Assembly: GCF_018143015.1 (NCBI RefSeq)
Contig: NC_054747.1
Coordinates: 34,663,733 to 34,727,732, forward strand
DNA from: Lytechinus variegatus
Lineage: Eukaryota > Echinodermata > Echinoidea > Temnopleuroida > Toxopneustidae
DNA length: 64,000 nt
Reading direction: 5' to 3'
The position numbers and the translations under genes are program-made. The notes beneath the pieces were generated by a model. That model was not told the origin of the DNA and did not search any database. It saw nothing but the letters and a program-made list of their open reading frames with translations. Below are positions 12,990 through 56,999 of the stretch, piece by piece. Every line of letters begins with the position of its first letter. Positions within the stretch are counted from its first letter, which is position 1.

Positions 12990-13252
12990 TTACTCAGCTA
13001 AAGATTGTGTTTTATTCAACTGTTGTACAAGATTGCCATCAGCCATTGTGAGCATTGTGTATAAAGTCGTCAAGAACTCTTCAACTAAGTCTTCACTATT
13101 GGACTTGTCTTTTGGCTTTTCTGTGAAATTCTCGACAAAAATGATTTTGTCTTGGATTATATCCATGTTGACGAGTTTATCGCGTATCACTTCCTTTGTG
13201 GTCTGATCTGGTATCTTGTCCCGATGCGTCACAATAACCATTGGATAGGTGG
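12990..13252 (-). CDS. Gene 1 exon 11: THRD motif and C-terminus
   Basis: The terminal exon starts after acceptor GTTGCAG in phase 1 and ends at a stop at 12990. It begins with a beta strand and the G4-type motif MVIVTHRDK, followed by DKIIFVENFTEKP, which resembles the KNY/ENY segment near the end of IFI44 GTPases. A last helix has LYTMLTMADGNLV. The protein ends soon after, lacking the basic tail seen in gene 2. Confidence 0.87.
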
Positions 13253-16200
13253 CTGCAACGAAATTTGAAAATCAAGTCAATATTAGGCTGTACGAACACC
13301 TCTTGAGCTATTGTGCTCAAGGTAGTGAACCCCACCACAAAATAACACACCTTGACGCCTAATGCTGAAAGTATACAACACTAAGAGTACGCCTTTATAT
13401 TCACCGAGCCCCGAAAATAGCAAATAAGGCCGTTTGCGAGAGGAGATGTGTATTTTAATACAGGAAACCATTATTGGCAAACGATATACGGCCCTCAAAT
13501 ATCAATGCGCGTGCCTACGATACCGCGGGAATTCTCTCCGGACACACCTCCAGCATAAGGTGTGTGATTGGCTAATGGTCGGCTCCGTCACGCTGCGTCC
13601 TTGTTGACAGCTAGGCAACGGTAACGAGCCACACGCTGTACGCCCAAGCATGCCAAGGGAGTCAATGAAATGAGTTGAAAAAATTCAGGGACGTGCGCAT
13701 GCAGTACGCGACAGAATACGAAACACATTTTAATTCTCGACTCAGCACTGAAGATGCAAGACGACAATTTTTTGTCCGATATCAAGCCGGTCTCGGATCA
13801 AATAGTACAGGCCTAACTTTAGTAGGCTAGTACATAAACAATTCAAGTATAGCTTATCCCTCGTCAAGGGATATCAGGACATAGTGGATCCCGGGAAATT
13901 AATTTTCAGAACTTTACAACGCCTCACCGAATTACGAAACCCCTGGAGCACCGTTAACTAACGTTAGAGCATGGAGGTAGAATGGTTATAGGTATCGCAA
14001 TTTCGCCACGATATTAAAAAGGTAATACCCGATATAAAATAAGGGCGTAGGCTGGTTTGAGCATGGGGGAGGTGCACATCCTCGGCACATCATTTCGGGG
14101 AGGTGGAACTGAAGTGTGAAATATCAGCTGTTTAAACCAGAAAGGGTAAACATTTCGTTTTGCTTGCCAGTGTCGGAATTCCTCTGCCTTGGTGGGAGGA
14201 TGCACGTGCACAGTGCGCCCACAGCCTACACCCTTGCGTTAGAAATGATGCATTATGGGTTAACATGGATAAGGTATAGGTAAAAGGGACAAGTGAGATT
14301 TAGACTGTTGTTGCAACGGTCAACGCCATTGCTTTAAAACCATATAAATAGTCGAAAAACAAAATAAAAAATAAATTAAAAAAATTAAAAAATGTAAAAA
14401 ATAGGAATCCTTACCGAACTCGGTCCTCACCGCTTTGGATAGTTTAATGAGAAATTTGGTGACGGCCTCAACATCGGTTTGTACATCACTTGGACTGATG
14501 GGAAGAGAATGGATTGTTAATTTTTAGTTAAAAATTGACAATGCAGGGAAACTTAGAAATGTATTTCGAAGGCCATGTCGCTCAAGGCCAAAACAGTTTG
14601 TATCAAACAGTAATGTTAAAATGAGCCCAAAGCAAGTTTGTGTGATGCTGATGATTACAACATTCTGCATCACTACCAAGTTTTGAAATTATTAAGAAAT
14701 GTTTTTCGAAGACACCATACAAAAATAAAATACTACCATTATTACACGATTAAGATCACCGTTTCAATACGGTTGCGAATCATGAAAGTGGGGTCTCAAT
14801 ATTATCTGATGCGTGACTATTTCACCAAAATGAGGAATGGAAGAATTTCTACGCTTTAATTCTTTATTCATTTCGTGATAAGTATAATCAATTCATCAGA
14901 GTAAATTATAATACAAAACCTGTATTAAGTTTTGCCAGTGTGAAGTTATTCCGTTACGAACTTTGAAATCAATTCTATGTAAAAAAAATCTAGTGAATAA
15001 AAGTGTCTATCATAAACCATATGTTGCGCAAAGGATGAAAACTTTATAATTTAGGAACCTGGCAAAATATTTTTTCTTCAATAAAAACAAATATTAAATT
15101 TATCCTTAACTATGAAATCGAACAATTCAGGATGCAATACTCGTATAGCCTTCTAACATGAAATTGTTTGATTTTTAGGAAGTGTCCAAATGAGTTCTTT
15201 GTTAAAGAAAGACCTATATACCCGAGAGTGCGTTCGATCTCAATGTTATACGATAACTTTAAGGACAGAGATTTAGAATAGTTCATATTTTTAATCATTT
15301 ACCAAAGTTCAGGACATGATTTTTTTTATTGAAAAATAATTACTCACCGAATAACAAATATAAGGAGAGATATCACTTGCTCTTCTGATGACAGATCAAT
15401 GACAAAACGTCAAGAGGATAACAGGAAGGGGAGAAATCGGAGATTAAATAATGATAATAATGAAAATAATTGTAATATCAGTCCGACCTCTCTTCTCCGG
15501 ACACGTTGGGACCAGCAGCAATCCGGAAGGGATTTATCTGTATCTGGGAGACCTAATATTAAATGCACGCAGCTATGTTGCCGGATGCCTCCCCAGGCCA
15601 CCGTCGGTAGCTACACTGTTGAAGTGGGCGCACGGTACAGAAATATTCACTGCAGAGTTGGTGCAAATTATAGGCAGTGTTTTTATGGAAATGCAATCGA
15701 TCGATGGCCAAAATTCTTGGATAATTTACCCGCTATAATGACTGAGGTATACTTTGAGCATACCTCGAAAGAAAGAGAATGACTCGATGAAACCAAGTTT
15801 TAAAATTAGATCATCGCGGCGGGTGTCGCAGCTTCGCAATGTCAGCCATTGTTACACTGACTGTGGGCTCAAACATGATAGATGACGCTGTCCACATTGA
15901 GGCCCAAAGTTAGCCAGCAAGACGTGTGTTGCTTTTCCCGCGAAACAAACAGAGAAACGTGATGAAATAGTTGCGCTGCACCCTGATTTACTGGAAATTA
16001 TAATTCCTAAAGTTCTTTTGGTGATTTTGGTGAGATATTTTCATGAAAAAATATGTATGGTGTAGGGTTACTATGTTGGGAAATATATGCAATCAAAGTG
16101 AGTTTATGTATAGGATTGAATTTAGATTGAGATCTCATTTCCTCACGTACCGGTACTAGATTGAATTAAAAAAAAAATCTCGGCAAGTGTGCATCCGGAT

Positions 16201-19200
16201 AATAGAGAGATCCGGATAAGGGGAGGCCGGATAAGAGAGGTCGGACTGATAATATTCACAATAATAATGATAATAATATTATTGATAATGATAATGATAA
16301 TAACATTAATGATAACTCTTATGTATCCAGGAAAACCACTTCAGTTACATGTTCTTCCAGTGGGCTATGCGTATTAAACATTACGACTTATGATTTTTTC
16401 CTTTTTCACTCTGTTAATAAACTACCATTACCCATTCTGCTTTATTTGATCTGCAATGTGTACGTAGGATTGGTGTTATGCTAATTTATTCACAAATGAT
16501 AGATTTTTTTATAATTTATGCATATATTCTTCATTTCACACAAGAAAACAGACGGCTAAATATGCATGGTTAGTTTGAGTACATGATAATTCGTGAATGT
16601 TTAAGATATATTTTTATATATACATCAAATTAAAGGTAAAGTAGAAATCATAATTTACGTTTACAAATAAATTGAAATTTTCTAAACTATCTTTTAAATT
16701 TGAGTAGGTCTACACTGTTATACCATAGATATCTGATATATATCATAATTAAAAGTAGTCTTACTTATATTTGTCATTATCTTCTTAGTCTTATTAATAT
16801 TTAAGTCACGCATTCCTTTGTTGTCTTGTATGTGTATTTTATCCGTGATTTCATAGAAGGTTGGTTCCAATGTGACTCCACCCGCAGATGATCCTGCGAC
16901 GACCTCTATCTCTTTGCTATACACACCTTCAAAAAAAAATAAAAGAACTTGTCATGTTACGAAGCATTTGTTTAACATCAATATTATTATCATTGGTTGT
17001 TTCATTATTATCACTTATCGTATTTATAAGCATCATTATTATCATCGTAATTGGTGTTATTTTGAATGATATTGCTGATAATTTTCTGGTTATTTTATAT
17101 GCTCTAAGACATACATCGTACATAATCTTAGCGCTACAGATCTATTATCAGTCATTCCCACCAACAATGTATGCACATCCTCCACTCTCTGTAGAGTATT
17201 CCAGTCATTTGCTATTGAGGTGCACACAGTACTGGACATTGGCAAAATTTAGGGGGGGGGGGACCACCGGGGACATCCCGATAGCCCGCGGGTCCGATAG
17301 TCCGCGGGTCCGATAGACCGCGGGTCCGATAGTCCGCGGGTCCGATAGACCGCGGGTCCGTTAGACCGCGGGTCCGATAGACCGCGGGTCCGATAGTCCG
17401 CAGTGCGTGTAAAATTATGATCAGATATTTCAAATGTCATCGAGAGGTCCAAAGGAGAAATGATACAAGACCATGGGGTTCTATCAGGTGCGGATCCATG
17501 GGGGGCGAGGAGGAACTGTGTCACCCACCCCCCCCCCCCCCCCAGCTCAAAAAAGAGGGGGGAGGGGAAAAGGAAAGAATAAAAAGAGAGAGGAAGATGG
17601 GAAAAGAAGATAATAGAAAAGAGAGTAAGAGGTGGAAAGGAAAGACAAAGAAAATGGGAGAAGAACAGGGGGAAAGAAGAGAAAAAAAGAGAAGAGGGAA
17701 AAGGAAGAGAAGAAAAGAAAGGAGAAAGGAAAACGAGGAAAAAGAAGAAGAAAAAAAAGAAGGAAGAGAAGAATATTTAAATAGAGAGGAAGACTGGAAG
17801 AAAGATAAGAAAAAAAGAGAGATAGAGGAAGAGGGGAAAAGAAGACAATAAAGAAGGGGAGAGTGGAAGGGGGAGGGAGAGGGAGAGAAGAAAAAAAATT
17901 AAAAGAGAAAAAAGGGGAAAAGAAAGAAAAAGATAGAGGGATAATTAATGGGGGAAAGAGAAAAAAAGAGGAAGAGGGAAAAGAAAGAAAAGAAAAGAAA
18001 GGAAAAGGGGGAAAAGAAGAAGAAAAAATAGGAAGAGACTAATATTAAAAAGAGAGAAAGATGGGAAGAAAAATAAGAAAAGGAGAGATGGAAGTGAATG
18101 TCGAATGTCCCATTGGGGGATTTGAAATCTCGCCTTTTTAGGTTGGAATATAAAAAATGTTCAGTTTAATGGTTGAAATATGTATCGTCTTAATGGCTAA
18201 CTTTTCGACCAGGCCATAATATTTAACATTTCTGCTCGCGCTTCGCGCTCGTGGTAATTATCTAGTTACATACGCGTCCTGTTCAGGTTCACAAACATTG
18301 CCCAGAATGTTAAATTTTCAGGACAATATACATGAAATTTAATTTTTAGCTTGCATATGGCTTATGAGATTATAACACATTTATGTTGCTTATAAAGTAA
18401 ATTTAGGAAATGACTGTTAGGACATGGGCGTTTGCCCCCCCCCCCCCCCCAACAAAAAAAGAGAGAATCAAGGCTAAGAAAAAATAGAGAGAAAAGGAAA
18501 GGGATTAGGATGAAATATACTATTATTTTTCAAACATTATGTCAAAATCTATACTATCACAACCTTGTATTTTTGTAATAAAAGTGTCAACATATTTGCT
18601 TGCTCGCTTCGCTCACTGCCAACTTCTTATTAATTTTATGCGATACGCCATATCGAGCCCCCTCGAAATTGTTGGCTCATTACGGCATTTGGACAAATCA
18701 ACTCTGAGCGGCCGATCGGGGAAAATATGGTGAAAAAAATGGCCCCTCCTCCTATTGGCGGAAGCTGGGTTGGCCCCTGACTTAGGCTTTCAAGATAAAA
18801 TACAGGAAATTTCTATTAAAAAAAATCAGATCGCGCTTCGCGTTCTCATTATTTATTTAGGCCTTGTGAGATACCTCAATGTGTTTTTCAAGAATAAAAT
18901 CTCAGATTTTCTTTAACGTCTACCCCCCCCCCCCCGCATTTCATTTATTTTTTAAATATCTTGGTGCCCTCGGCCGCCCTGCATCCATGCTGAATAAATA
19001 CGCCACTGATGAGGATAATTAGTCGAGATTGCATATTCCCTAGAGGTTATCATTTATAATATTGAAGGGTATATTAAAACAACAGTACAGAAACTATAGC
19101 TCCCGTTCACAATATTCTAGTAGGGCCTACTCTGGTGAGAAGTTAAACCAAATTGAAACCCCCCAAAATCACTCGTGCTTCGCGCTCCCATTGATATTAC

Positions 19201-22200: not shown

Positions 22201-25200
22201 TTCTCAACTAAAAATTTAGGGGGACCGTCATCCCACCTCAAAGTTAGGGGGGAAAGCCCCCCCCCCCCCCCCGCTTCCGCCGCCTAAGTAATTAGTAAGC
22301 TCATTATTTCGACATGGCGTTATATTCTATCTTGTCAAGTCGATATGTCCACATGGCGAGATATGAAGTGTACAAGTCCCGGCAAGAATCCCGATATATC
22401 GCCATGTTGACATGTAACATATTTAAGTCGACTTGGCAAGATACAATATCACGTCATGTTAACATATAACTTTTTATAAGTGGACTGACTTGGCAGGATA
22501 ACGTATCTCGCCATGCGGACATAAGCTTATTTAGTCGACATGGCAAGATAAAGTATCTCGCCATTTCGTCAAGTCGATGGCATTTTAGAGGCTCCGTATG
22601 GCGTCTAGAGGCTATATTTCCGGGGGGGGGGGGGGGGTAACAGTCCCGGCGATAAAAATATGGGGATAATACTTGAAGTAGATGTCAGGGGGCGATTGTC
22701 CTGTGGGTCATCGTTTTAGAACCCCATGGACTCGTATCATTGACCTTTTGACCTCTTGATGACATGGATTTCACTATATTGTCCTGATAATAATTTTACA
22801 CACACCGCGGACTATCGGACCCGCGGTCTATCGGGCCCGCGGTCTATCGGATCCGCGGTCTATCGGGCTGTAACCGGACCACCAAAGGTTATGGATCAAA
22901 ATATTATAGGGAGGTCCACCTGAATTAAGGGGGGGGGTGCAGGAAACAAAATTGACAGGCAAAAAAAGGTTATCAACAAAAAAATAGGGGAGGGATCGTC
23001 CCCCCACCTCAAATTTAGTGGGGGGAGGGGGTCAGGTCCCCCGTCCTCCCCCCCCCCCGTTTCCGCCTCGTAGCACTGGATAGGCAACAATGACTTTCAC
23101 TGGATACCCATTTTGCACCTGGGTCCAGAGTAGCAAAGTGTGGATTAGACAACAATGGGATTCGACCACGCAACCCTCAGTAGCCAAGACCAAGAACCAC
23201 TACACCCATGTTCATCATCGTTGGTGTCATATTACCGTCTCGTTCTTATTCTTATCATCACCAGGAGTAGTATCATCATCGTGTCCTTAATTACTATTTC
23301 TATCATTACAAACCTGATCGTCGACATCCTCATTTCCCTTATTCTATGGCTGTTATCATTGTTTTTTTTCTGTAACTGCTTGTGTTGCCTCTGGTGTTAT
23401 TATGATAGTTATTTTCCACAGGTCTGGAATGTAATATATGGCTGGAAAAAAAGTAACAAAAGCTCACCAGAGAACGCATATTTTAAGGACCGGATAAAGG
23501 AAGATTTCCCTGCACCTGTAAGACCAACGATTGCCATTCGTATCGGCGCATTTGGATATGCAATACCCTCCGCAAGAACCTTGTCCGTTAGCGATCCATG
23601 GCTGTACTTCCGTATTTCACTTCGAAGACCTCCAATGTAGAATTGATGCAAAATTTGATAAGGAGAATGATAATAATGAAATGGTAGTAACGATAGTATT
23701 GGTAATGATGATCAATGGCGTTCATGAAATGCGCCTACCTAACATCAAATTGAATAAATGATTAATTAAAATTCAATTCTCTATTCTTGATAAATTATTA
23801 GTAACTTCATCAAATTGTACACTTATATATAAAACAATCATAGGAAAAGGATTGCAACAAAAAGTTAACTCTTGATTAATTAAGTTAATAAATATCTAGT
23901 TAATAAATTAACTAGATATCTTCGCAATCCCTATCTTGAATCTATCTATGAATATAAAATGGGGTTGTTCACACAATTTTTCATATGGAAGCATGTGGGA
24001 CGGGGTCAATAAATGGGTACAAAAACGTCAAAAATGAGCATTCTGATGTGTGTTTTCCAGGTGACATGACATTTGCTCGGTCGACCAAGATATAGGGTTA
24101 AGGCTACAATATGGTTGTATGCTAAGTTTAGGGTTAGATTTCGTGGCCCCTGTACTATTTTTTTAACGAAGCAATTGAGCAAACAACCAAGCTTTTGCCA
24201 CATGGGAATTTTATCTTATGGTGAAAATGAAGGACGTGTTGCACACGACAGTGCTGTTGAAATTTTGATAACTTTTCAAGTGTTCATTATTTGTTATTAT
24301 GTTGCTGAATACAATATGGAAACACTAGTGTTAAATTTGAATTGCACATCAAGTAAGATTCCATGCACGTCCCCCCTTCCCCCGTCATAAAATACACGTT
24401 TTCGAATCAATCTTACTTTGTACTTCGTTTGAACATGTTGAAGGTACTCTGTAAACCGGGGGTTGATATGCTGGTCCTGCTCCATCTAGATTGGGAATGA
24501 AAATAGCAAGTGATATTTCTGAAAACTTGCTTTTTCTAATGCGACTTCAACTCATGTCCTTTCAATGACAATAATTAAAGAGAAAAATTTCGTATTCGTG
24601 TTTCCTGATACTGTTTCATCGACGCAATTAACACGTATTCATCTAGTAAATTTTGACTAATATTTCATGTCATAGAATTTAATTCTGGTTTTGTTTCCAT
24701 TTTCAACACAATGCATACAATAATCAAGACGAAAACAAACAGAAAAAATCTGACCGAGATGTTGTCATCGTTACGTTATAGCATACAAGTTCTAGATAGG
24801 CCTTATAAAAAACTTGAATGCAGAAAAATAGAAATGAGTACGTTTGATATGATATTCAAACAGGAACTGGGGCATGATGGGGGGGGGGCACCATTTTTGC
24901 ATTTTCAAGTATTGAACAGGAATTAAGTGTGGAAGAACAGACCGCCGGAAAAAATCGAAAATAGAATTTTAGGTCACGTAACTCTTATTATTAAATCGAG
25001 GGAAAAGGGTGTCGTCACTTTCAGGTAATTTTTCCTCTATCAAAATACACTTGCCCTGCCACTCCAAAACGAAGAGGGATCTTTGTGACGTATATTTTTT
25101 TACGAAAAATGCAGAGTTACATTGAACATGTTGAACATGCTTTAAACCATACTTCTAATTAAATAGGTACTCAAATGATAAAATGTTTCTCTCCTGTACA

Positions 25201-28200
25201 TTTGTTGATCACTCCACTGAAAATACATCTGAAGTTGTTTTAAAACGATGATATTAAAAATGGTTCTCAAATATTTTCGAAATTACAAATAGGAAGTGCC
25301 AATAATTACCTTGTGATAAGCAGGGTATGCCAAAACGTCTGTGATAGAACCATGTGAATATAACTCCTAGTATGACTATCGCAAATATTATGAGAACTAT
25401 ATATCCCCAGTGTAACCCTGAAATAGATAAATATATAGAAAAACAAGATGAAAAGTCGTGATTTGGAAAAAAAAAACAATCGTCTGATTAAAGTCAAATG
25501 AACATGATGAAGGGGTTGTTCTGTTCAATCAGGTCGCGTCGTGTGTGGTGGACGCGTAACATAGGCCTAACCTTTCGTGAAAATGTTGACCCTTTTCATG
25601 AGACGTAACCTTTCGTATATTTGATGAAGAATATTATATCTACCACGTCTACAGAATGTTAGACCAAGAGGACTGTTTAACATAAGTTATTGAACAGCGC
25701 TGGTCTCCATATTAACTGTCGGAACTATTGTCAGGCCACAGTATCGTTAAAAAATAATAAATATCATCTAAAAAATAAGAAAATGGGCTAGTGCCTCGAG
25801 CTCGCTTTATCAGTCTGTGCCTTAATTTGTGTTTTTTGTTAATGTATAGAGCTCATATAAATGAAAATAAATATTTGAAAACATGGTTCCAGCCCTCTTT
25901 TTCAAAAACCTGGATCCACCTAATGATTAAAATGATAAAAATTATGTTAATAAATTACGTGTTATTGATAAAATCTACATAGCAAAAACTGAATTCGAAA
26001 AATGAAAGAATGCGTCACTAATTGAATGAATCAAATAAAATCCCTGAAAGAAATGCATTAGCTTTTAGGAAAGTACCTTTAGTACCAAAAGACGCCGTCA
26101 TGGAAGAGACCCCATTCACCGCTTCTCCTCTAGCTTCGCATTTATATTGGTGATCGAACTCTGACCTGGGTATCTGTCAATTAAAGATAAATATCACTTG
26201 TGTTAATAATCTAAAAATGAATTCAAACAGAACGAAATAAAATCATCACCCAAGTGTTTTATTTGTCTAAATAAAACAAGTGGAGTGCCTCTGGCAGTGT
26301 CGGCTGCATTAATTAATACGCGAGTCAATGGCGCAGCAGTGCTGACTTTGAAAACGACTATAGAATGATCATTCACAAAAAAACATTCATATGAAGATAA
26401 AATACTATGTTCACTGATCCTAAATGACATTTGACCTTGATCGTGTGACCAAAACATTGTGCAAGTTGATCAGTGATACCTGATTACCCTTATGTCTACA
26501 TTTCATGAACCAGATCTATAAACTTTTGAAGGTATGATGGCCATTCAACAAATACCCCCAACACGGCCTAAGTTCATTTACCTTCGTCATGTGACCTGAA
26601 ACTCACGCAGGACGTTCACTGATGCTTTTCATGAACTAGATCCATATACTTTCAGAGTTATTATAACTTAACCTTGGTTAAGATTTCGTTTTGATCCACC
26701 AATATAATCTAGGCTCAATGACCTTAAATGACCTTTGACCTTGGTCATGTGACCTGAAACCCAGGCAATGTGTTCAGTAATAGTTCATTATTCTTATCCA
26801 AGTTTGGACCTGGTTTCAGGAACCAGGTCCATAAACGTTCAGTTATGATGGAAATTAAGAAATATCCCCAACATGTCCAAAGTTCATTGACCTTAAATGA
26901 CCTTTTACTTTGATCATATGACCTAAAACTCAAGAGGGATCTTCAGTAATACTTGATCATCCTAATGATCTTTGACCTTGGTCATGTGACATTACACTTA
27001 GTTTTTGTTTATGGTAACTACCCTAAAAAGTCGGAAGGACAGCATTTTTCTGGTAAACGCCTTGTATAACCAATTACCTAACAAACATTTTACGTCTAGG
27101 TTATATCACTCATAGTGGCTGACCTTATAAGTTTACATTAATGTACCAGATCTAGGTGACAATTAATCTTGATTTAAAAGACTTTCTCATTAAATATATT
27201 TTTTTACTGCAACTACTTTCTTTTACCTTTTGATAATGAAGCAGCCACATGAATACTGAATTTAATTGGCCATTTGATTGCACTGCAAATTCATTGAAGG
27301 GTCTGACTTTCCCTTTGTGAGAGCTTGAAATAACAGGTTTACGGCGGATTGTTCAGATGAAAAGTAAAGTACAAGAACATGATGACTGAATATTACCATT
27401 CATCAAATTGTCTTTAAAAGGATCTAGTCATTTTGGTAATGTTAGTATAAGTTTAAATATTCATTGTGAATTTTTTGTACTTAAAAACAATGAAAAATGT
27501 GTTCTCCAAATTAACCTTCGAACACATTTCGTTTAAACCTCGAATGATTTCTTTTTGTAGTTCAGAATTGCAATGTAATGGAACAGTCAATTTTCCCCTG
27601 CGGTAGCCGTACGGCGACTCGATAACAGACGTTTTAAGATTCAGCTTTATATGGGTGGTTTGAATAAAATTAGATATTTTGGACTCGCCGTACGGCGGCC
27701 GTAGGGGGGAATGTGACAGCAGCATAAACTGTTTTATCAAATAACTTAACCTGTAATGTAGATGAAACGGTGTAGAGCCCACTCCGTTCTTCTACGAGCG
27801 GGGGAGGGATTTCCCGCAGTTTGCCATCAATCTTGATCCAAGTCAGGTTTGCTGCGGGTCGAACTTGATGGAGCTCACAAACTAAGTTCACATGTTCAGG
27901 TGGATCCTTGTTGATGAAGTAGGTGCAGTGTCCTGGCGTTGTCACATGACATAACTTGATGACTGGTTCCATGGGCTTTGCCAAAGCTTGCAGAGGTTAT
28001 TAAAAACAGTTTGATATTATAAAGTTCTGGCAAACCTAAGAATTAATTTTAATTTGAGTCAGGTAAAACGGGATAGGCCGATATACAATGTCATAACACA
28101 CACGAGTGAAAATCTGAGTTAAAAAAAACGGGGATAAAAAGTTTCATTAAAAATGCCAAATCTTTAAGGTTCGACGGAAAATCAGAGAAAGTTGTTTTAG

Positions 28201-43898: not shown

Positions 43899-44165
43899 GA
43901 GACGTAACAAAATAAAGCGATCTCATTATATTCATCTCTTCGAAGGGATGTAAGAGGTCCAAGATCTCGTCTTCCGATAACTTCCCAAGATCGTTATCTC
44001 CGTTATCTCGACATCCCAGTGACACTTTCAAGGATCCTTAGCACCCCTTTATAAAGAGGATAATTTTCACTCTATCGAAAAACGACATTTCTTTCCTCCA
44101 GGCATGTCACCATAAGGGACCGTTCAGGTTTGCGGATAGAACGCACTGTGTACGACACTTGGTAC

Positions 44166-44491: not shown

Positions 44492-47400
44492 CTAATATTA
44501 AACAAACGAGCAAACCTAAAAATTATGATAAACCCGGATTCATAAGAAATTGAAATACTTTTGCAGTTATAGAATAGCATTTAAATCATTATTCCCTGAT
44601 CTGACCGACTTCCTTTGGGGACTGCAGCATGGTGCCGTCCACTTCCTAAAGCTCTTGTGAGCAATGAGCTTATCGGGCCTGTCCCTTAAACTATTGGTGA
44701 ACGGAGCAGCATGCAGGAGGGCACCAGCCCATTAGGATTTAGCTGGAATTCCAGTGAGTGATAAAAATGGCGTACTCATTTTTAATTGTGTATTTGAAGG
44801 TCTATTTGTAGAATCTGTTCATATTTGTAGTTGTCAGTCCACCATTAATTACCATTTATTTCATCTTGATGTTTCAATTTGCTTTGGAAGAATACGGGAA
44901 TTTTGAGATTGTTCGTGAGTGGGCCTCATCCTGAAGGCCTGTGTTTAATAAGATATTGGTGTACCTCGAATTCAAATTGCCAACTCAAATAATTCTTGAT
45001 TGTCTCGTGAGCTCGTGTCAGCAGGGCCGTAACACAGCTTTGCATGTAATCACCCTCGGTAGCTCTCTATCATTTGCGGTGGATGACGATTCTATCGGGG
45101 GGTTATTTGGATTATGATTGGACGGGGGTGTGAGGCTCGGGGCTTGAAAGCCTTACCCATTTCTTATGCAGGGTTCCCACAGAAATTTGAAAAGAATTCC
45201 ATGACTTTTCCATGACTGAATTGCTGCTTTTCATGACTTGCCTCCTGGCACGGTTTCCAAAATCAGACACAGCAGAGTATGATAAATAGGATGAGAGAAC
45301 TTTGCAATTCACGGCAAAACGGAAAGCTGCCATAGCCATGAGGTAAATGCAATTCCATGACTTTTCCATGACTTTTCACAAATTTTCCAAGTTCCATGAA
45401 TTTTCCCTGACTTTCCAGGACAATTTTTTCCAGGATTTCCCATGACCGTGGGAACCCTGTTATGGTTATTTGACCATGAACAGGTACCTATGTCTAAGGA
45501 TTTTTCTCAAATACAGACCCATGTCTAAGGGTTTTCTTTAAAATATAAACCCATTTTCCAGATTAATTCTTTGAACTTGGTCAGGCCGTAAATTCCCGGA
45601 AAATCCCGGGATAGATCCCCGCATCGCGGCTGCATCCGTTGATATCCATGCAACCCAAATAGGCCTATATGAAAATGCAAAAAAAATGCATGTGCTTGCA
45701 TGCACTATGTATGTACGGTACTGTATACGGTCGACTAAGTGTGCCAGATACGCATAGAGTGACGTACCCCGGTGCCCATTGCTATCGTACTAAGATGTGG
45801 AAATACTGCAGGTAGAATCTACTCATTCCAGGGTCCCGGCTACTCGTACTCTCAACTGTGACTAACAAAGACATTTCCGGGGCTTTTTCAGGAGATTCTT
45901 AGAATTTTTTTCAGAAACGGACCTCATGATAATTCAGTTGAAAATATGAACAATGAAGAAATGACTAAGGATTTCTTGCAATAGCAAGACCCATGTTTAA
46001 GATTTTTTTTCAGAAAACGACCGACTGGAGCGGCACATCCCCGTATGGCGATATATAGAGGCGAGTCCCCCCCCCCCTCCGATTCTATATCGTGACTTTT
46101 TTGTTGTTGTTGAAAGATCGCCAGGATCACCATGGTGCCGCGACTAGTTAAAATGGTAAGATCATGGTAAGATTGGGCATACATGTAGATAAGACACGTT
46201 TAAGAGAGAAAATAAGTAAAACATTCATTACCAAATTCCTTACGAGTCGCCTTCACAAAGTCCGGTAGAAACTTTTCTAGTGCGTTGACAGGTTGTCTTG
46301 CGCTGCAGAGTAAGAGAACATTATCAGGACAGAAATTACAATATTTGGCAAGACACAACCAACATGACCAATAGAAATAGGAATTACATATCTCTTTATA
46401 AAAATGATCGTTTATCAAGTTAGAAAATAAAGATGAAGATGATTATGATATAACCAAGACTAATTGTAATAATTACAGTAATGGTAACAATAATCTATAA
46501 TTAATAAGTATAATAGCAAGTATATAGAATAGAAAACATAATTAGCGTTATATTTATTGTAATTATTGATATTATTATATTATTAGTGAAAATTATAAAT
46601 AATACAAATGATAACAATAAAACTACAATATGGAAATACAATACGTGACATTAATTGTAATGAATATTCTTTTTAATGCTACAGTACAAGTTTTTTCTTT
46701 GACATTTTAAGTCCAAGATAGTACTTACTCAAAGACCAGGATCGGAAAATCGACTGTTCCATCCAAGAGTTTACTTTTTCCTTCTAAAGAAGAAAGAAAC
46801 GGCAAAAAATACGCAAAAAAGTCCAAGAAAGTCAGATGTGAAAGAGCAAAGAGGTTAGTTTAACTTTACACTAGTTATATGCCCACCATGGGTCGTTCTG
46901 CCAAACCCCATCTCAAATTACCCTGACGCTGCCCTTTTCATAGCTCTCTTTTTTAAGTTGATTTTATTTTGGCTCTATGACTTACAAATTATATTTAATC
47001 ACAGATGCAATAATTGTCCTACAAGCTCTGTTTCCTTTTAAAACCCCATTTCTCATGTTTTATTCATCATAATGGAATCACACCATTGTTTGTTTTTAGA
47101 TATATGTATATCTCAGATTTATTGCTAATTTGCTTCAGTTTTATGTACAATTTTCGGGGTTGTATTGTTTTATTGCAACATTTAACTGTTCATTGTACAC
47201 ATAAAAAATAGAATCGCTTGGAATGAAAATCATTGATATCATTAATGCAGTCCTTGGGGTCGTGGTTGGTCAAGCAAATCATATAAAGAAATGATAATCG
47301 AGAAAGATCGGTTATTTTTAAATTGATAAAATTTGTAATGAATTTTGTGTTTAAAGATTCATCAAATAAAGTGAAATTCAGAACTGATTTCAACCTATTT

Positions 47401-50400
47401 TTTGCAATTTAACCCCACACACCATTTTTTGTGAGAATTGGGTAGAAGGCAGGGACAGCCCTCCCCCTCCAGCCAAATGATATAAATAACTCAAGGTAAG
47501 GTATATACGAGTAAGCATTTAGATTACTCACGCATTTGGTTCATGATGTCAGTAATGCATGAAACATCGAGATCTTTCAACCCTCTGTTATCGACCACAG
47601 ATATATGATCGGTGATTGCAAAAACCTTTGGGATGACGGTGACTCCTCCTATGGAGTGGGACTGGGCCACCTCCACCGCGATGAAATCTCCTAATAAAGA
47701 ACGGAAGAACCAAACTAAAATATCTACACTGTAAAAAAATGAAGTGCTAAATAAGCACTTACAGTGTGATATCTATACTGTAAAAGTGAAGTGCTACAGT
47801 GTTTGTATAGTGACTGCACTACGAGTGCTAATTTGTTTTGTTCAAATTTAAACTAGAAAATGAGTACTCGTAGTGCAGTCACTTTTCAATCAGTGAAAGT
47901 GCTAAATTAACATTCATTTTTTTACAGTGTAAAGATAAACCCATTGGCCCGTATTCTGAACTCGGGTTTAAATTAAACCCTGGTTTAAAGTTGTGATTTA
48001 ACTATGGAGAGCCAATTGGAGCACAAATCCCCTTACACTGTGAAAAATGAAGTGCTAATTTAGCACTTACAGTGTTTGTATAGTGACTGCACTACGAGTG
48101 CTGATTTTCTAGTTCAAGTTTAAACTAGGAAATGAGCACTCGTAGTGCAGTCACTTTTCAGGCACTGAAAGTGCTAAATTAGCATTCTATTTTTTTTTCA
48201 GTGTAAAGATAAACCCATTGGCCCGTATTCTGAACTCGGCTTTAAATTGCACCCTTGTTTGAAGTTGTGGTTTAATTATGGAGAGCCAATGGGAGCACAA
48301 ATCCCCTTACAGTACAAATCCAATTTATTAAGTCATATATGGCACCTAAATTGTTCGCAATTGTCTGGGAATGATAACTGAAGTATTTTTCATCGTTATG
48401 AAACAAAATAGTAAAAATAAGAAATATACATTAAAACAGAATTTTTGACATTTTTGTCTTCCCATAATTTTAGCACAGAGTTAGACCGTGGAGTAAGTTA
48501 AACCTAACTTCAGAATACGGGCCATCAAATGTAGACAAGGGTTTCGTGTTCATTTGATTGGAATATTGGACCCGGTAACATAAACATTTGCTATCCATGT
48601 CAATGTAATATAGGCCAATCAGGGCAATAGTTGCATTGTATATTGATAAAAACACCAATATCAACCAATTAGAATCGATATAAACCCCTCAAAAGAGTTC
48701 TGCAACTCAAGTTTGAGTGCTAATAAATTTCTTAATGTGCCATCATCAGATGTAAAAGTTGTATAATTGGAAAGTATGATTATTCCTCTTTACGATCATG
48801 TGTCTTTTGTAATGCTTGTGTTATCAGGAAATACGCAGAAATGATAAATATGCAGTATTGTAAAAAATGAAATGTTGCAAAATGCGTCGTTTTCAATAGC
48901 GAATTTCCAATTGTTTCGAGGATGGACCGAGTGCATTCACTGTCACCTGCATGGTAGAAATTTTATAGAAATGGAGACTCTTGTTAGAAATCAATGTATT
49001 TTGCAACATTTCACTTCTCACTTTTCTCAATGTTCAGGGTGATTGAATATTCCATGATTACGTAATCACAGCAAATGGCATGTAAAGAGGAATAATTCAG
49101 CTTTGCAATGATACCAGTTTCATCTTTTATACTTCATTAATCAAAAAGATATCATCCCCAAAACTGAGTTGCAAATTTTTTTTTGAGGGGTTTATAAACC
49201 TATAGCTCATTAAAAGCCTCCATGTCACGTGGTCCATATCAGACACTTTGATTGGTGGAGCTTCCACAAGAAGGGGAAAATTGATCAATTAGAGAAATTG
49301 TTTCAGCTCTGTTATCTCACAAAATGAATTTCAAAATAAATTTTTAAATAATGAAAATCATGGAATGGATTTTTTTTATGATCACCAAGCGTAATTTTGA
49401 TCTGTTTTTTTTTTATACCTTTTAGAGAATAGGTGAGAGATCTCACAAGAGATGACTTCCCGGCATGCGTCACTCCGAATACTCCTAATCGGGTCACCTT
49501 GGGCCAACTTCGGTCTTCTTTTTTCTCCAAGTTGGAAAATTCTCCGGGTTTTGTAACCCCGTAGTTTCTCGGCCAGTTCGTTGAAGTCACCTACGGGAAG
49601 CAAAAGTAAACTGCGCGTTAAACCCATTTTGGACATAGCACAGTGAGACAAAGTGTGACCACATAGTAGACTATGTAAATGTCTAATTCACACTGTCAAT
49701 ATTCTTCGATTTAAGTGTGAAGACAATTTTCATATTTCTCCTCATTGTCCTGTTAAAAAAGGAGTTTTATTTTGCCCTGAACATGTGGAATAACCACTGT
49801 TTAACAACACGTAATGATTCAGTCAAGTTGGTCTTTACTGTCAAATCTATAAAAATTGAAATATTGTATAGTTCAAACAATAAAAAACAAAATAAATAGT
49901 GAGTGAGGGACATCATCAATTCTCTCACTGAGTTGTGCTTACAACTACTTTGTGAAAAAAGCGAAACATTGAAATGTCATAACTTTCTTATTTTACATCC
50001 CATTTTGATAAAATCTTCACCATTATGCTTGTCTGATATTTCTATATTGATTCAAATCAACATTTTTCTGAGGTGGACTTTACCGTTAACAGTGTGAAGG
50101 TGCTTTGCAATATGACTGATTTTCACACTGCGAATACAGTGTGGCACATTGGGCTCTTTCCAGCAGTGATTGCTATACAAATTATAATCACTTACAATTT
50201 TGATCTCTGAAATGAATAGCATGCCTTTCAAATATTTACACAACACCTCAGCATGGTTGTGAAACGAAGGCTCAAATACACTTTCATGTTTTATAATAAT
50301 TGTACTATTAGCGAGATTTGATTACACCACCGTGATGGATAGATATGACTAGATTTCCATGGCCTATGAATTGCTGTCGATGAAAAAAAAATATTTATTA

Positions 50401-53400
50401 TTTTTTTGTTATTATTTATTATTTTCATGTATTATTTTATATTTATTATTTTTTAAGATTATTTTATTATTTATTGTTTTTGGGGATTATTTATCATTGA
50501 TTATTTTTCTATTATTCAAAAAGTTATTTATTAGTGATCAAATAATTTCTTAAATCGTATGATCAAACCAGACGTTTTTGATATAATGATATTTGTGCTA
50601 TTTCAAATACGCTTTTTTATTCATTAGGGTGTAACAAGTGGTGTTAATTGCATATCACCCCTTTCAGATAGTAACGAGTATTATTATGGGTATTTGTATC
50701 AATACGATCTTCCTTTCTTACCCTGAAATGGGGCTAAGGGCTCGATCTGGTCTACGTCTGTCTCCGTCTGCTGATTCTTTCGTTCTGTATTGTGACGTCA
50801 TAAACAAAGTGATTTTTCATATAAATGGGGAAGTTCGCACCAGCAAATAGTATATCGTAAAAATAGCAGAAAATATAATGAAAAAATATTGCCGAAGGTT
50901 TGAGAAAAATCAATAAAATACTGAAAAAGTTATTAGAATTTTGATTATTTTATTTGTGACGTCATATGCGAGCAGCATTCCTACAAAGCGAATGGTAAAA
51001 AATCAACGAAATGTCAATTATCAGAAAATACCGTACCTTTTTATATCTATAGACAAACAATTTCACGCCCGATCAATCATCAAGAAAAGAAAACAAAGAT
51101 AGTCATTAGGGTCCATTGAAAAATGAAATTCATGTGTTTTATATTGCATAACATATGTTGCAGCTGCTCGTTAATGACGTCACAAATCCAAGATTTAAGA
51201 TTCCAATAACTTCCTTAATCTTTAATGGGTTTTCCTCAAACTTTCACCAATATTTAGTATTATTTTTTAAATCTTTTTTACAACAGTTTCTTCGACAGGA
51301 TAACCTTCCCCTTCAGCTACTCCCTTTTTTTACATTGCCTCAGCTCTCTATTTTTTACATATGATTTGTTGCATTACCCCCACCACATCACATAGCCTCC
51401 ATTCACAGAATTCGTAATTTCTTCAAAGTTAAGTTATTTTATTCACACCTATCATCCATCACATTCCACATGTTTAGTTTCACTCTTTGGGGTTGTTTTT
51501 TATTCCCTATCGCGCCAATTACAATTCTTAAACATGAAAGAACTTTTGAATAATTTTCTTTGACGAGGAGGGGAGAGGTGGATAATGAGCATTTGAAAGG
51601 GTCAACAAACGATCGCTTTAGGTAGCATTTGATTTTCGGCTCTTGTTCATTGCTAAAATACAAAAATATTCTGCACATGCGCAGAATGACAAACCTTGAA
51701 TATAACATAATTTCATGCCTCGAAAATGGGCTTCACGGACAGTGCCTCTCCAATCGTAATCTTCATAGTATACCGCCTTTATTCAATAAACTAAACAAAA
51801 TGGTGTAAACAATGGGAAAATTTGTATTGTCGTGTTTCTTCCAAAAAAGTTTAGATCTTCCTATGTTTTATTTCACTTACTTTTCCATAATAGATAGGCG
51901 ATGCTCAATGCGAAAATGACGATTAGGAGAATCAGAAATATTGCGATAACCGCTTTCGCTCCGCCAGAGAGGCCCTTTTCTGTTGATTAAAATTTTTTTT
52001 AAAGAAGAAAAAAAGAAACGAGAAGAAAAATAAAAAATAAAAACAAAATGAGACATTTGATTATGATATTAAACTTGTGCAGAAAATGAATGTTGAAATA
52101 AAAACCTTCATATTTCTGACTTAATGCATTTTAGCGCGGGCGTTCCACAGGAATGTTTATGAGCACCTCATCTGCGCATGGAGGTTGGCGGTGTGATCGA
52201 CTACTGTATCCCTCATCAGAATTTTACGTCTTGTGTAAAGTGTAATATTCGCGTCAAAGGTAGTTTGTCATATCTCGAGAAAAAATAATGTTAGATATAA
52301 ATGATCACAGATTATTGTAGGCATATAATGATAAAGATTGATTTCGAATTTTCTGAAGTATTGAGGCAGCTGGACGTATTAATCTACATCACCTTCTGTG
52401 TCAAATGGCATTCATTAACCTATTCAATCTACATCAAAATATCTAATATTTTGATCATGGTTTGCTCTCTCGCAATTATGTACAGCGCTGTGTTAACGAT
52501 TTTCATTCGTGGGGGATGCTGCCGATGGACAATACAGTAAGAACCCCTTATTAAAATTTCGGGGATGCTTCCCAAGGGCCATGATTATTTATACGCCCAT
52601 TGCCACCTAGATATCATTTACATATACGCCAATATCATGATTTTTTTTCTTATACTGGCGCGATATAACATCTACTCATTAATCTGCAGATATGCCGCCG
52701 TCAGAACGGAGAAATATCAAAATCCCAATTTTTTGTCCAGTTTTTCTTCTTTGAAAAAGTTATAGCATGTATGGTACTGAGGTTTATTCAAAATCTTGGT
52801 TCTCGGTACGGTGGTCAAAACTTTAAATAAAAACAATGGAGCTTAATTTACTCACTTTCTGGATACTTTACCGTTACCAGTAATGTTGATGTTCCGTTTA
52901 CACTCTCACCAGTGGCTTTACAAACAAAGTTCTCTCCAATCTCGTTTCGAAATACCTGCAAGTTTTTTTTAAGAGAAAGCAGAGGTAAAGGTGAGTAAAA
53001 TGTGAATTAGCCGTGACATCAGTCATTTAAATTTTGATCAATATATAAATATAAATATTAAGGGCACCCTCTTTCACCTCAAAAGAGGAGTTATTTTTCT
53101 TTCCCCTTTCATTTGTTTTCAATTATCCCCCCCAAAAAAAAAAAAAAAATGAGTCGAAAATTGTCTGTTGTGAGTGTTGTCAGCCCAGGCCACCGTTGAC
53201 GTCTTGTGAAACTGGGCCGTGATATTCTTTTGTCATCTTTTATTTCTTTGTCTTTAGCCATAACCCATGTTGATGCAAATACACAAAATGCAACCATATT
53301 CAATAGTAATCATTGAAGAAAGTTGTATTATCAAAACTTATGAATGTCAGTTTCAACAAATATTTGAACTGAGGGCACAGGTGTAGTGAAAGGATCTTTT

Positions 53401-54859
53401 ACAGGTTTGTATACCATGGCTGCATGTCGTAGATTCTAATAATTGAAGTTTCTCCTAATTTGAATCAATTTCATTCAGTGGGAAAGTGAACAAGTTCCTG
53501 AAACCTTGGTACAAAATTAGTGATCGCCAGACGAAGGAACTGGTGCAAGATGTTTACTGGTCAAGGTGGTCTGGTATGAATTATTTAACATGTTCATTGT
53601 AGAAATTATACAAATCCCACCAGTATTCATTCATTCATTTATTTCATTTCAACACGGTAAACGAACTTCAGCCAATGGCTGTTCTTCTGAACGTCCGTGT
53701 GTACATATTAAAATAACATTACATGTATCAATGTTACAAAGAAAAACAAACAAAACAAGTTTACATCACTCTGGCGTCCAATCTAAATATGCTGAAACTA
53801 GTTACTACATTTAAATCCAACTGTGTGATGTAATAAGTGCAATGGCTTATCTTCATAACATCAAATCATAAACTACTGTACATAGTACAGACTGATACGA
53901 CTCAAAATTCATTGAACTTTGCTAAAAGTCAAATTATCTGGACTATCATTTTCTTTCATGGCTCCTTGCATGGTCATAAATGCGATTATATTAAGGTATA
54001 TTTCATATTGTAACATAGTGGTTTAAAAGGAGCCAGATTGAGAAGCTTCGCGGGCCGTAAATTGTGAACCTCTGGCACATGGGCCTATTTCATGAGAAAG
54101 ATACTTCAGTAGTTCATCAGATTTGATTACTTAAAATTGCTTGACTACGCTTCCAGTACGTATCTAATTAGTATATCTCTCTATTTGCCTCATGTAGGGG
54201 TCTTGAACTGCCCCCAAAATTGAATATGGCACAAGACGTTTCTTCTTTCAAGGCGGAAAGCTATGGAACAAGTTAGTATCGCACATCCTACCTGAAACTT
54301 GTCAAGATAATTAACTTCGGACGACATTAGTTCAACATCTATTAAAATTCCCCCTTACTGCATGCTACCCCACCCCCGCAATCCCCAAACCCACTTTTTT
54401 GTTTTTGTTGTATTCGTAATTTGTAGTCGTAAGTTATTTTGTATAGGACTGATTGCATTTTTTAAACGTGTACACTGGACCCCTCAGAAGAACAGTCTGT
54501 GGCTGAAGAGGGTCATCAAACCAACGAGTGGAGAATAAATGAAACAAATATATTTCTCACCGTAAACACTGAAACAACGCTAAAAAGTCCATTTTCATCG
54601 GGGCCTAAAGGAGTTTCCACCGATGCTCTCTTCTCCCCATCCTGAGCCATCCATGACAGTGTAACGGCTGGTTTCACCTCGTCGACCTTGCATCTGAGCT
54701 CAAAACTTTCTTTGACTACTCCTTCTACTTCATATACGCACTTACCGGGCTCGGTTGGCTTGCAGTCCGGGACGACTGGCTCGAGGGGTACTGCTAAGGC
54801 TGTTATAATGCAAGTAACATTAAGATAGATGATGATGGTGATACTACTACTACTACTAC

Positions 54860-54919
<60 letters not shown>

Positions 54920-56382: not shown

Positions 56383-56444
<62 letters not shown>

Positions 56445-56999
56445 CATTACATTTCGCGTGTTGGACACACATAAGACACACAAGAGGTAATGCATTGCAG
56501 TTACAATAGAGTTTTTTTCCAAGTATTCTACAATTTTTTCGACGCAAACTTCATGTCTTCGTCATATATATATATAGGAGTATGGAGAACATTAAGCATA
56601 AACTGTGACCCGTTGAAACTCTACCACACTCATTTCTGTTTTTAATGAAATTATCAGACGTTACGTCTCAATCAAACCTACCTATGACAGTTAGATTTGT
56701 GAAACTTTCTCCTGTCGAATCGTCTTCTAAAACCGGTTTGCATGAATACATCTCTTCATCTTCGACCCGGATATCCGATATGACCATCGAATAATCCGCG
56801 GTCATGTTGAACCGCGGTTCCTCATCATTGAACACCTTTCCTTGAAAATACTGCACGGGAACTTTGGGTTCAGCGTCGGGTGCAGTCCGGTTATGCTTGT
56901 ACCAGTAGACGGCTGTCGGTTTACCCTCGAACCGGCAGGGAAGGGTTATGCTTCTGCCCCTGTAAGCTGTTGCGGTTGGGTTCGTGGTGACTACAAGGG
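44166..56999 (-). CDS. Gene 2: paralogous Ig-Ig-TM-GTPase receptor (5' end missing)
   Basis: Exons: 56999-56682, 54799-54561, 52955-52856, 51979-51881, (candidate microexon 50206-50196), 49590-49419, 47690-47532, 46783-46729, 46302-46232 and 44491-44166. Order, domain content and intron phases follow gene 1: V-type Ig, split C-type Ig, transmembrane helix, P-loop GVTHAGKS, GGVT, DNRG, THAR, VENFTE. The first Ig exon starts in phase 1, so a signal-peptide exon is expected upstream, but none was found up to 64000. The phase at the transmembrane to P-loop junction is broken unless the 11-nt microexon is used (see findings). The G4 aspartate of gene 1 (THRD) is not conserved here (THARN). It has a longer lysine-rich C-terminus ending GLFGFLKRK. 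Proposed role as for gene 1: a membrane Ig receptor with an IFI44-like GTPase tail. Confidence 0.8.
45169..45459. mobile_element. MITE with CAGGGTTCCCAC termini
   Basis: CAGGGTTCCCAC and GTGGGAACCCTG bound 291 bp rich in CCATGACTTTTCCATGAC. TTATG flanks both ends directly. Elements of this look are widespread in animals and are often placed with hAT-like MITEs (recalled, not searched). It lies in the last intron of gene 2. Confidence 0.82.
46232..46302 (-). CDS. Gene 2 exon: amphipathic helix exon
   Basis: A 71-nt exon, phase 2 to phase 1 (acceptor CTCTGCAG, donor GTAATG). It encodes NALEKFLPDFVKATRKEF. Confidence 0.8.
46729..46783 (-). CDS. Gene 2 exon: short beta-strand exon
   Basis: A 55-nt exon, phase 1 to phase 2 (acceptor TTCTTTAG, donor GTAAGT). 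It encodes LLDGTVDFPILVF, and the following strand and phase match exon 9 of gene 1. Confidence 0.78.
47532..47690 (-). CDS. Gene 2 exon: switch I / DxxG exon
   Basis: A 159-nt exon, phase 1 on both sides (acceptor TTATTAG, donor GTGAGT). It has SIGGVTVIPKVFAI and then VVDNRGLKDLD. It is the counterpart of 16926-16765. Confidence 0.86.
47726..47930. mobile_element. ACACTGTAAAA MITE, copy 1
   Basis: Ends ACACTGTAAAAAAATGAAGTG and TTTTTTTACAGTGT are inverted. Inside, GTGACTGCACTACGAGTGC mirrors CACTCGTAGTGCAGTCAC. It sits 40 bp beyond the DNRG exon of gene 2. Confidence 0.82.
48035..48204. mobile_element. ACACTGTAAAA MITE, copy 2
   Basis: A shorter copy of the element at 47726-47930. The ~100 bp after each copy (ATAAACCCATTGGCCCGTAT...) are also duplicated, so a block of about 270 bp was copied in tandem. 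A degenerate third copy is at about 63740-63882. Confidence 0.82.
48220..48523. mobile_element. Inverted-repeat element, GGCCCGTATTCTGAA termini
   Basis: GGCCCGTATTCTGAAC at 48220 mirrors TTCAGAATACGGGCC ending at 48523. A further left end occurs at 47947 because of the local duplication. Confidence 0.7.
48679..49196. mobile_element. Inverted-repeat element, TATAAACCCCTCAAAA termini
   Basis: TATAAACCCCTCAAAA at 48679 mirrors TTTTGAGGGGTTTATA near 49196. The inner arms also pair (GATTATTCCTCTTTAC with GTAAAGAGGAATAATT). Intron of gene 2. Confidence 0.72.
49419..49590 (-). CDS. Gene 2 exon: P-loop (Walker A) exon
   Basis: A 172-nt exon with acceptor TTCCCGTAG and donor GTATAA. The P-loop frame, open from 49590, has RLGVFGVTHAGKSSLVRSL, with Walker A at 49476-49453, and ends in phase 1 like gene 1. 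Its length is 3n+1, so it cannot take the phase-1 input from the transmembrane exon directly. A second open frame across the same exon reads FNELAEKLRGYKTR at its start, which resembles the lead-in of IFI44-like GTPases and of gene 1. Confidence 0.75.
49715..50092. mobile_element. Palindromic MITE (AAAGGTCAAGTCCATCCC family), partial copy
   Basis: It has AATAGTGAGTGAGGGACATC, ATGTCATAACTTTCTTATTT and AGGTGGACTTTACCG as in the copy at 42130-42640. The left end is lost. Confidence 0.65.
50196..50206 (-). CDS. Candidate 11-nt microexon of gene 2
   Basis: AGATCAAAATT sits between a good acceptor (TATTCATTTCAG) and a good donor (GTAAGTG). It enters in phase 1 and leaves in phase 0, exactly what is needed to join the transmembrane exon to the P-loop frame of the next exon, and would encode KIKI. 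This is inferred from splice signals and phase only. The alternative is a 1-nt frameshift in the P-loop exon. Confidence 0.35.
50825..51312. mobile_element. Palindromic MITE (TGACGTCA family)
   Basis: GGGGAAGTTCGCACC at the left mirrors GGATAACCTTCCCC at the right. Two inverted GTGACGTCATATGCGAGCAGC-type blocks lie inside (50956 and 51175). Intron of gene 2. Confidence 0.75.
51881..51979 (-). CDS. Gene 2 exon: transmembrane helix
   Basis: A 99-nt exon, phase 1 on both sides (acceptor ATCAACAG, donor GTAAGT). It encodes AVIAIFLILLIVIFALSIAY flanked by glycine/lysine residues, a single membrane span. Confidence 0.86.
52856..52955 (-). CDS. Gene 2 exon: end of C-type Ig domain
   Basis: A 100-nt exon, phase 0 to phase 1 (acceptor CTTGCAG, donor GTGAGT). 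It encodes GENFVCKATGESVNGTSTLL, giving the F-strand cysteine. It corresponds to 26173-26077 in gene 1. Confidence 0.85.
53624..54548. mobile_element. Two LINE 3' ends in opposite orientation
   Basis: 53624-53760 (minus) and about 54216-54548 (plus) share GTACAC-GGAC-TCAGAAGAACAG-TGGCTGAAG-type text next to an ATAAATGAA tail. The plus copy also encodes GGKLWNKLVSHILPE, like the C-terminus of LINE reverse transcriptases. Both are short 5'-truncated remnants in a gene 2 intron. Confidence 0.6.
54561..54799 (-). CDS. Gene 2 exon: first part of C-type Ig domain
   Basis: A 239-nt exon, phase 1 to phase 0, with donor GTGAGA. It contains the extra cysteine pair CKPTEPGKC, the B-strand cysteine in ELRCKV and the tryptophan in TLSWMA, as in gene 1. 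The acceptor lies only about 40 nt from a long (GTA)n tract. Confidence 0.85.
54841..54990. repeat. (GTA)n/(CTA)n microsatellite, self-complementary
   Basis: ACT repeats turn into AGT repeats and back, giving a foldback microsatellite. It explains poly-leucine and poly-valine frames on both strands. Confidence 0.92.
55498..56030. mobile_element. Foldback element carrying a 57-bp minisatellite
   Basis: The arms 55498-55556 and 55972-56030 are 59-bp inverse copies with a single mismatch (outer end ATGGTGTTAAACCAAGG). Between them the 57-bp unit, starting GATTGTCATTCGATTAGCG, runs from 55521 for seven full copies and a partial eighth. Intron of gene 2. Confidence 0.9.
56371..56440. repeat. (TA)n microsatellite
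   Basis: Alternating TA for about 65 bp, next to the first Ig exon of gene 2. Confidence 0.9.
56682..56999 (-). CDS. Gene 2 exon: V-type Ig domain
   Basis: A 318-nt exon, phase 1 on both sides, has acceptor TTTTTGCAG and donor GTAGGT. It has the B-strand cysteine in TLPCRF, the C strand VYWYKHN, and the F strand VEDEEMYSCKP. Sequons NRT, NMT and NLT mark it as extracellular. It aligns with the first Ig exon of gene 1 over its whole length. Confidence 0.87.

Follow-up and report, generated by a model that had tools for sequence, protein, structure and literature searches.

The locus analysed here raises the question of whether immunoglobulin (Ig) exons and GTPase exons lying in line on one strand of the Lytechinus variegatus genome encode single membrane proteins, and what such proteins would do. 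The window, that is, the whole stretch of 64,000 nucleotides, covers positions 34663733-34727732 of contig C8, and the genome searched comprises 869.6 Mb in 33 contigs. Two adjacent minus-strand genes with GT-AG splice sites, A (33383-12990) and B (56999-44166), were modelled from the DNA alone by reading exon by exon and then joining the exons at splice sites. Comparison across the genome supports a single gene that carries the Ig domains, a transmembrane (TM) helix and the GTPase, and we infer with moderate confidence that A and B are type I membrane proteins in which an Ig pair would gate a complete cytoplasmic G domain of the IFI44 type.

Gene models and relatives of A and B

Both genes display the same exon order: a V-set Ig, a second Ig domain interrupted by an intron in phase 0, the TM helix, the P-loop, an exon with GGVT and DNKG or DNRG, a helix exon and a last exon. 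All elements named in the initial annotation (V-Ig, split second Ig, TM helix, Walker A, GGVT, DNxG, THxx and VENFTE) are present in A and B on the minus strand.

Gene A
33311..33383, minus: exon 1, start and signal-peptide-like MFTFNLRKMCFIFIVFLHCFVVSS; ends in phase 1
28522..28851, minus: exon 2, V-set Ig; phase 1 to 1; Pfam V-set 5.2e-14, Ig_3 1.9e-16
27751..27986, minus: exon 3, second Ig domain, first part; phase 1 to 0; second Ig stretch in Pfam
26077..26173, minus: exon 4, second Ig domain, remainder; phase 0 to 1
25310..25417, minus: exon 5, TM helix; phase 1 to 1
23468..23629, minus: P-loop exon, Walker A GLTGAGKSS; start phase 1 (weak acceptor), end phase 1
16765..16926, minus: GGVT switch and DNKG; phase 1 to 1
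15348..15384, minus: exon 8b, beta-4 strand EQVISLLIFVI; phase 1 to 2
14415..14494, minus: exon 9, helix; phase 2 to 1
12990..13252, minus: last exon, THRD (G4), VENFTE, stop

Gene B
56682..56999, minus: exon 2, V-set Ig; phase 1 to 1; Pfam V-set 5e-13
54561..54799, minus: exon 3, second Ig domain, first part; phase 1 to 0; C2-set_2 8.4e-7 across the second Ig
52856..52955, minus: exon 4, second Ig domain, remainder; phase 0 to 1
51881..51979, minus: exon 5, TM helix; phase 1 to 1
49419..49590, minus: P-loop exon, Walker A GVTHAGKSS; start phase 0, end phase 1
47532..47690, minus: GGVT and DNRG; phase 1 to 1
46729..46783, minus: exon 8b, beta-4 strand GKSKLLDGTVDFPILVF; phase 1 to 2
46232..46302, minus: exon 9, helix; phase 2 to 1
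44166..44491, minus: last exon, THAR (degenerate G4), VENFTE, basic tail GLFGFLKRK, stop

The Ig ectodomain of A and B was matched by the Pfam V-set and Ig_3 models with E values of 4.5e-12 to 1.9e-16. By eye and by hydropathy, the TM exon is clear in both genes and a signal-like exon is seen in A only. The two proteins share 37% identity in the cytoplasmic part and 38% in the ectodomain plus helix. Over 455 aligned codons, identity at the three codon positions amounts to 0.50/0.61/0.29, a pattern typical of conservation at the protein level. Apart from exon 8b, start and end phases are identical in seven of eight matched exon pairs, and the sole mismatch is the start of the P-loop exon (phase 1 in A, phase 0 in B).

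The GGVT exon of both genes is left in phase 1, whereas the exon seen after it is entered in phase 2, so one exon was missing from the models. A similarity search among A, B and their relatives c1a and c1b (listed below) gave no candidate for it. Exon 8b was found by its strand pattern and splice signals (A 15384-15348, B 46783-46729), with a counterpart in c1a. The c1a exon shares 89% protein identity with that in copy E, a further relative, where its splice sites are intact, which provides an independent check; the splice sites of exons 8b and 9 are both retained in c1a and E. With exon 8b included, the score of the Pfam family MMR_HSR1 (cut-off 21.9 bits) rises from 24.0 to 32.6 bits (9.5e-8) in A and from 19.0 to 25.3 bits (1.7e-5) in B, so that A passes the cut-off with or without this exon and B only with it. 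Joined through exon 8b, B reads TVDFPILVFDARQPVNALEKFL..., which presumably aligns with FVFDASS of IFI44. The phase series 1,1,0,1...1,1,2,1 proposed at first holds once exon 8b, entered in phase 1 and left in phase 2, is added.

The introns and flanks hold other elements. A 57-bp tandem repeat (7.9 copies, 98% match) lies within an intron of gene B at window positions 55519-55971, and the plus strand is open for 157 aa through it. A 274-bp unit is repeated 1.9 times at 47795-48311, between the P-loop and GGVT exons of B. Downstream of gene A, a reverse transcriptase fragment (11054-11800, minus strand; Pfam RVT_1, E value 6.8e-10) represents a retrotransposon remnant.

Genome searches at E values up to 10, with the window's own exons included, returned at least 51 matches to the B GTPase, at least 33 to the A GTPase and at least 114 to the B ectodomain. 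Ig and GTPase matches in the same order and on the same strand were found at five further loci on contigs C1 and C8 (positions in Mb).

C1:72.7006-72.7161: c1a (C1:72.70; L069+L070), V-Ig, second Ig, TM, P-loop, GG-motif/DNRG exon
C1:72.755-72.797: match positions only
C1:72.827-72.8366: copy E (C1:72.83; L077), V-Ig, second Ig, TM, P-loop, GG-motif/DNRG exon
C1:68.583-68.598: c1b (C1:68.59; L071+L072), V-Ig, second Ig, TM-like segment (splicing unsettled), P-loop, GG-motif/DNRG exon (up to which it was read)
C8:24.306-24.315: D (C8:24.31; L075), V-Ig, second Ig, TM, P-loop, GG-motif/DNRG exon (up to which it was read)

The V-set and second Ig domains of c1a, c1b and D were also found in the Pfam scan. 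Further Ig and GTPase pairs near C8:37.59 and C8:39.84 are weak, with E values above 1 on both sides. A and B, described at first as a tandem pair, are indeed adjacent but belong to a multigene family. Besides these loci, GTPase clusters without Ig nearby occur at C8:0.8-1.8, 3.4, 9.6 and 14.1-14.3 Mb, C10:34.0-34.1, C6:10.6-11.0 and C1:3.15, and two Ig genes with similar ectodomain exons, Y and Z (L073 and L074; C8:34.63-34.64 and 34.52-34.529 Mb), adjoin the window.

An open reading frame (ORF) with the pattern LLHS..GR.S.TDV.DA.Y stands head-to-head with GTPases on C8 and C6 (plus strand; L014 2294-2681, L019 2214-2640, L027 2290-2758, L032 2314-2698). The ORFs of L014 and L027 are related to each other (E value 2e-10) and matched no Pfam family at E values up to 1; this ORF and the GTPase may possibly form a conserved divergent gene pair. 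In the mitochondrial COX1 on contig C33, the motif RMNNMSFW is written with AAA for both Asn and AGA for Ser, as in the echinoderm/flatworm code (table 9), in agreement with the invertebrate host, here an echinoderm, that had been proposed.

Linkage of the Ig and GTPase exons

The positions of the two exon sets were compared using all listed matches outside the window (at least 47 GTPase and at least 108 Ig) and a null in which positions were shifted circularly 10,000 times with strands drawn at random. Among the matches listed, an Ig match lies on the same strand and no more than 25 kb upstream at 6 of 24 GTPase clusters. The null has a mean of 0.33 clusters, and none of the 10,000 randomisations reached 6. 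An Ig match downstream or on the opposite strand within 25 kb was found at none of the 24 clusters, again among the matches listed. With the limit at 15 kb, 5 of the 24 clusters in the same set remained linked (0/10,000 randomisations). At 45 kb, two C1 clusters have Ig matches downstream as well, which we assign to the genes that follow in the array. An earlier run, with Ig matches at E values up to 0.01 and the weak GTPase rows C8:37594607, C8:39843690 and C7:41705072 left out, gave 4 of 21 clusters, and 2 of 10,000 randomisations were as high.

Copies within an array are not independent, and such adjacency could also result if each unit consisted of two genes, one for an Ig receptor with a short tail and one for the GTPase, duplicated as a block. 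For this reason three further signs matter, namely start methionines, splice phases and C-termini. No Met was found upstream in the open frame of the P-loop exon in A, B, c1a, c1b or D, and copy E has one four codons before the P-loop acceptor; a usable start Met is present at 0 of the 6 Ig-linked loci. In contrast, each of the 11 unlinked P-loop exons that were examined has an upstream Met in frame, although L020 and L023 offer a short open stretch only and L013 and L014 are near copies. The end of the TM exon (phase 1) meets the start of the P-loop exon (phase 1) directly in A, c1a, D and E, with B as the exception. CaaX-like ends (KCEIM, KCKIM or CVIL) are found in 9 of 10 unlinked last exons examined, of which eight are close copies from C8, the exception being L025, and in none of the five last exons from linked loci (A, B, c1a, E and L036 at C1:72.797). 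The Ig and GTPase order is moreover kept among copies that are about 33-37% identical. These signs argue against two genes per unit.

Several observations weigh against a single gene. Unspliced TM exons run to a stop 2 to about 20 codons beyond the donor, so short-tailed forms are possible. No GTPase exon was found at Y and Z in the 8-10 kb read downstream, and the helix of Z was not found in the stretch read; an ectodomain of the A/B type may carry other tails. With the B ectodomain as query, the other GTPase clusters listed above have no Ig match nearby. The start-Met contrast excludes the P-loop exons of clusters C8:0.8-1.8, C8:3.4 and C1:3.15 Mb. In gene B, no convincing candidate was found for a signal-peptide exon or for a linker exon between TM and P-loop, and B needs one further linker exon of phase 1 to 0 because its P-loop exon starts in phase 0. 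The acceptor of the A P-loop exon is weak; this acceptor and the chosen start of A are plausible, and other choices exist, such as an in-frame upstream ATG at 33434 in the same open frame. Finally, all of the support comes from genome comparison. A candidate linker exon for A (24485-24417) received no support from the relatives and was rejected.

With both sides considered, two genes per unit appears highly unlikely. The single Ig-TM-GTPase gene of the initial annotation is supported by order, position, start Met and phases, which are comparative signs.

The C-termini also bear on where the GTPase would act. Three unlinked GTPases (L018, L027 and L032) have N-termini that start with MGN and continue with coiled-coil-like sequence. 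The CaaX-like ends resemble a lipid-anchor motif, and the MGN start resembles that of N-myristoylated proteins. Together they suggest that the GTPase works at membranes and that the TM helix may replace the lipid anchor in the linked copies.

The cytoplasmic G domain

The cytoplasmic part of A and B contains the G1 P-loop, the switch Thr, DxxG and beta-4 in order, and both score above the MMR_HSR1 cut-off, placing it within the P-loop GTPases as first proposed. Pfam scans of A and B at E values up to 1 gave no match to AIG1 (PF04548), GBP or NACHT, and IIGP stayed below its cut-off (E value 0.03 in A and 0.0017 in D). Profile searches against the PDB returned generic P-loop proteins (EngA, EngB, NUG1, ABC proteins and septins) and allowed no finer placement.

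A profile of A, B and c1a was compared with a provisional sequence of the G domain of human IFI44, the only target; hhalign gave a probability of 96.9 and a P value of 1.5e-10 over 198 columns. The half after the P-loop, aligned separately with this sequence, gave a probability of 41.6, a P value of 2.7e-4 and a score of 28.8, and the controls for this half scored 17.3 in the best of 60 shuffles (0/60 as high) and 11.9 with the reversed target. Single-sequence comparisons with the provisional IFI44 sequence were weaker: A gave an E value of 1e-6 over 54 residues around the P-loop, and B gave short or off-register stretches only. The Pfam scan alone provided the control GTPase families for the IFI44 comparison. 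These results support a probable kinship of the G domain of A and B with that of IFI44. No TLD match was found in Pfam scans of the ectodomain and cytoplasmic part at E values up to 1. The IFI44-like label first given to these genes would thus apply to the G domain, and membership of the IFI44 family fails because the TLDc domain is absent.

Other features of the G domain weigh against the proposed receptor with an IFI44-type GTPase. MMR_HSR1 stays under its cut-off in c1a (17.8 bits) and in the partial D (18.7 bits), A also exceeds the cut-off of the generic AAA_23 (30.7 vs 27 bits), and the switch motif in c1b is GGHS instead of the GGVT of A and B. The G4 motif reads THRD in A, THAR in B and THAA in c1a and E, and the G4 Asp is absent from B and the C1 copies. 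Since B lacks this Asp, GTP specificity is not to be assumed for both genes; A keeps THRD, and B and the C1 copies do not, so some members may bind GTP yet not discriminate or hydrolyse it. In copy E the C-terminal tail that follows the G domain carries a stop and a shift of frame relative to c1a (L077, about 9515-9750), so this copy may be decaying or short-tailed.

Selection was estimated between c1a and E with the Nei-Gojobori method over seven exons, with exon 9 and the tail of the last exon left out. The rates of nonsynonymous (dN) and synonymous (dS) substitution are 0.046 and 0.222 in the Ig exons (ratio 0.21) and 0.078 and 0.242 in the GTPase exons (ratio 0.32). The ratio is 1.69 in the TM exon, which has few sites, and 0.30 in all exons together. 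The Ig and GTPase halves of this pair are both under protein-level constraint.

These data bear on the idea that the proteins are decoy or regulatory receptors whose G domain binds nucleotide but is inactive. The replacement of THxD by THAR in B and THAA in the C1 copies and the broken tail of copy E would fit such a role. On the other hand, A and B both preserve the P-loop Lys-Ser, the switch Thr and DxxG, A retains THRD, and purifying selection acts on the G-domain exons of the C1 pair. We regard a decoy as quite improbable.

Proposed function and known systems

The domains, their order, the splice phases, the recurrence of the family and purifying selection in one pair of relatives are observed in the sequence. 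The predicted chain consists of a signal peptide, a V-set Ig, a second Ig, one TM helix, a short linker and an IFI44-type P-loop G domain, with the Ig domains probably outside and the G domain inside the cell. The Ig pair may bind a microbial or cell-surface ligand, and binding would cluster the receptors. Clustered G domains could then pair in a nucleotide-dependent manner and start a local membrane response, which may involve the cytoskeleton, uptake or signalling. The TM helix would do the job that the putative lipid anchor appears to have in the unlinked GTPases, and the tethered GTPase would become gated by surface recognition.

A surface adhesion or allorecognition family, with the G domain acting mainly as a nucleotide-regulated clustering scaffold and not as an immune alarm, would explain part of the same data. 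The V-Ig family is large and clustered (at least 108 matches outside the window at E values up to 10), the G4 Asp is missing from B and the C1 copies, and Ig superfamily receptors of such layout are commonly adhesive. Defence is favoured, by analogy only, by the kinship with IFI44 and by the Ig-NACHT receptor for phagocytosis that is described below from another echinoderm. An adhesive role is in our view rather unlikely, while deserving attention.

The receptor in which Ig recognition gates the GTPase may represent a new class, an echinoderm multigene family with a covalently attached IFI44-type GTPase under direct control of the surface domains; we hold this claim to be evenly balanced. Such a class would have arisen when an expanded Ig ectodomain family was joined to an expanded, apparently lipid-anchored GTPase family, and would combine membrane sensor and effector in one chain. 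If true, a deuterostome that lacks adaptive immunity would have part of the interferon effector toolkit wired directly to recognition at the cell surface. As one genome holds both lipid-anchor-like and helix-anchored versions, the effect of added recognition on the GTPase is directly testable.

Ig ectodomains in animals are joined to kinase, phosphatase, TIR or ITAM tails. Ig receptors with enzyme tails are already known. No description of an Ig-GTPase receptor was found in the open-access PMC literature among the matches listed, and PMC13228809 and PMC10210618 yielded no relevant passage. Proteins of the Ig-TIR and IL-1 receptor type share an Ig ectodomain, one helix and an inner signalling domain, but carry a TIR domain where A and B have the GTPase. 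Vertebrates use GTPases of the IFI44 kind as soluble proteins induced by interferon. IFI44 is soluble and has an N-terminal TLDc domain. IFI44 and IFI44L resemble A and B in the colinear G domain (198 columns of the provisional IFI44 sequence, with a weaker match after the P-loop) and differ in that Ig domains and a helix occupy the TLDc position in A and B. GIMAP (AIG1) proteins offer a parallel as immune-linked, lineage-expanded P-loop GTPases that acquire new domains, for example the CARD+AIG1+HINT fusion in lancelets (PMC12373286); unlike them, A and B have no AIG1 match in Pfam at E values up to 1.

The closest layout is that of AjNLRC4 from the sea cucumber Apostichopus japonicus. It is also an echinoderm protein with two extracellular Ig-type domains, a TM helix and an intracellular P-loop NTPase, and it is reported to bind bacteria (Vibrio), to oligomerise and to drive actin-dependent phagocytosis (PMC8699970). 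Compared by description, the two differ in that the NTPase of AjNLRC4 is called NACHT and the protein has two helices (PMC8699970), whereas A and B match MMR_HSR1 and one helix was found. By analogy with AjNLRC4 (PMC8699970), A and B may work as receptors that are clustered by their ligand.

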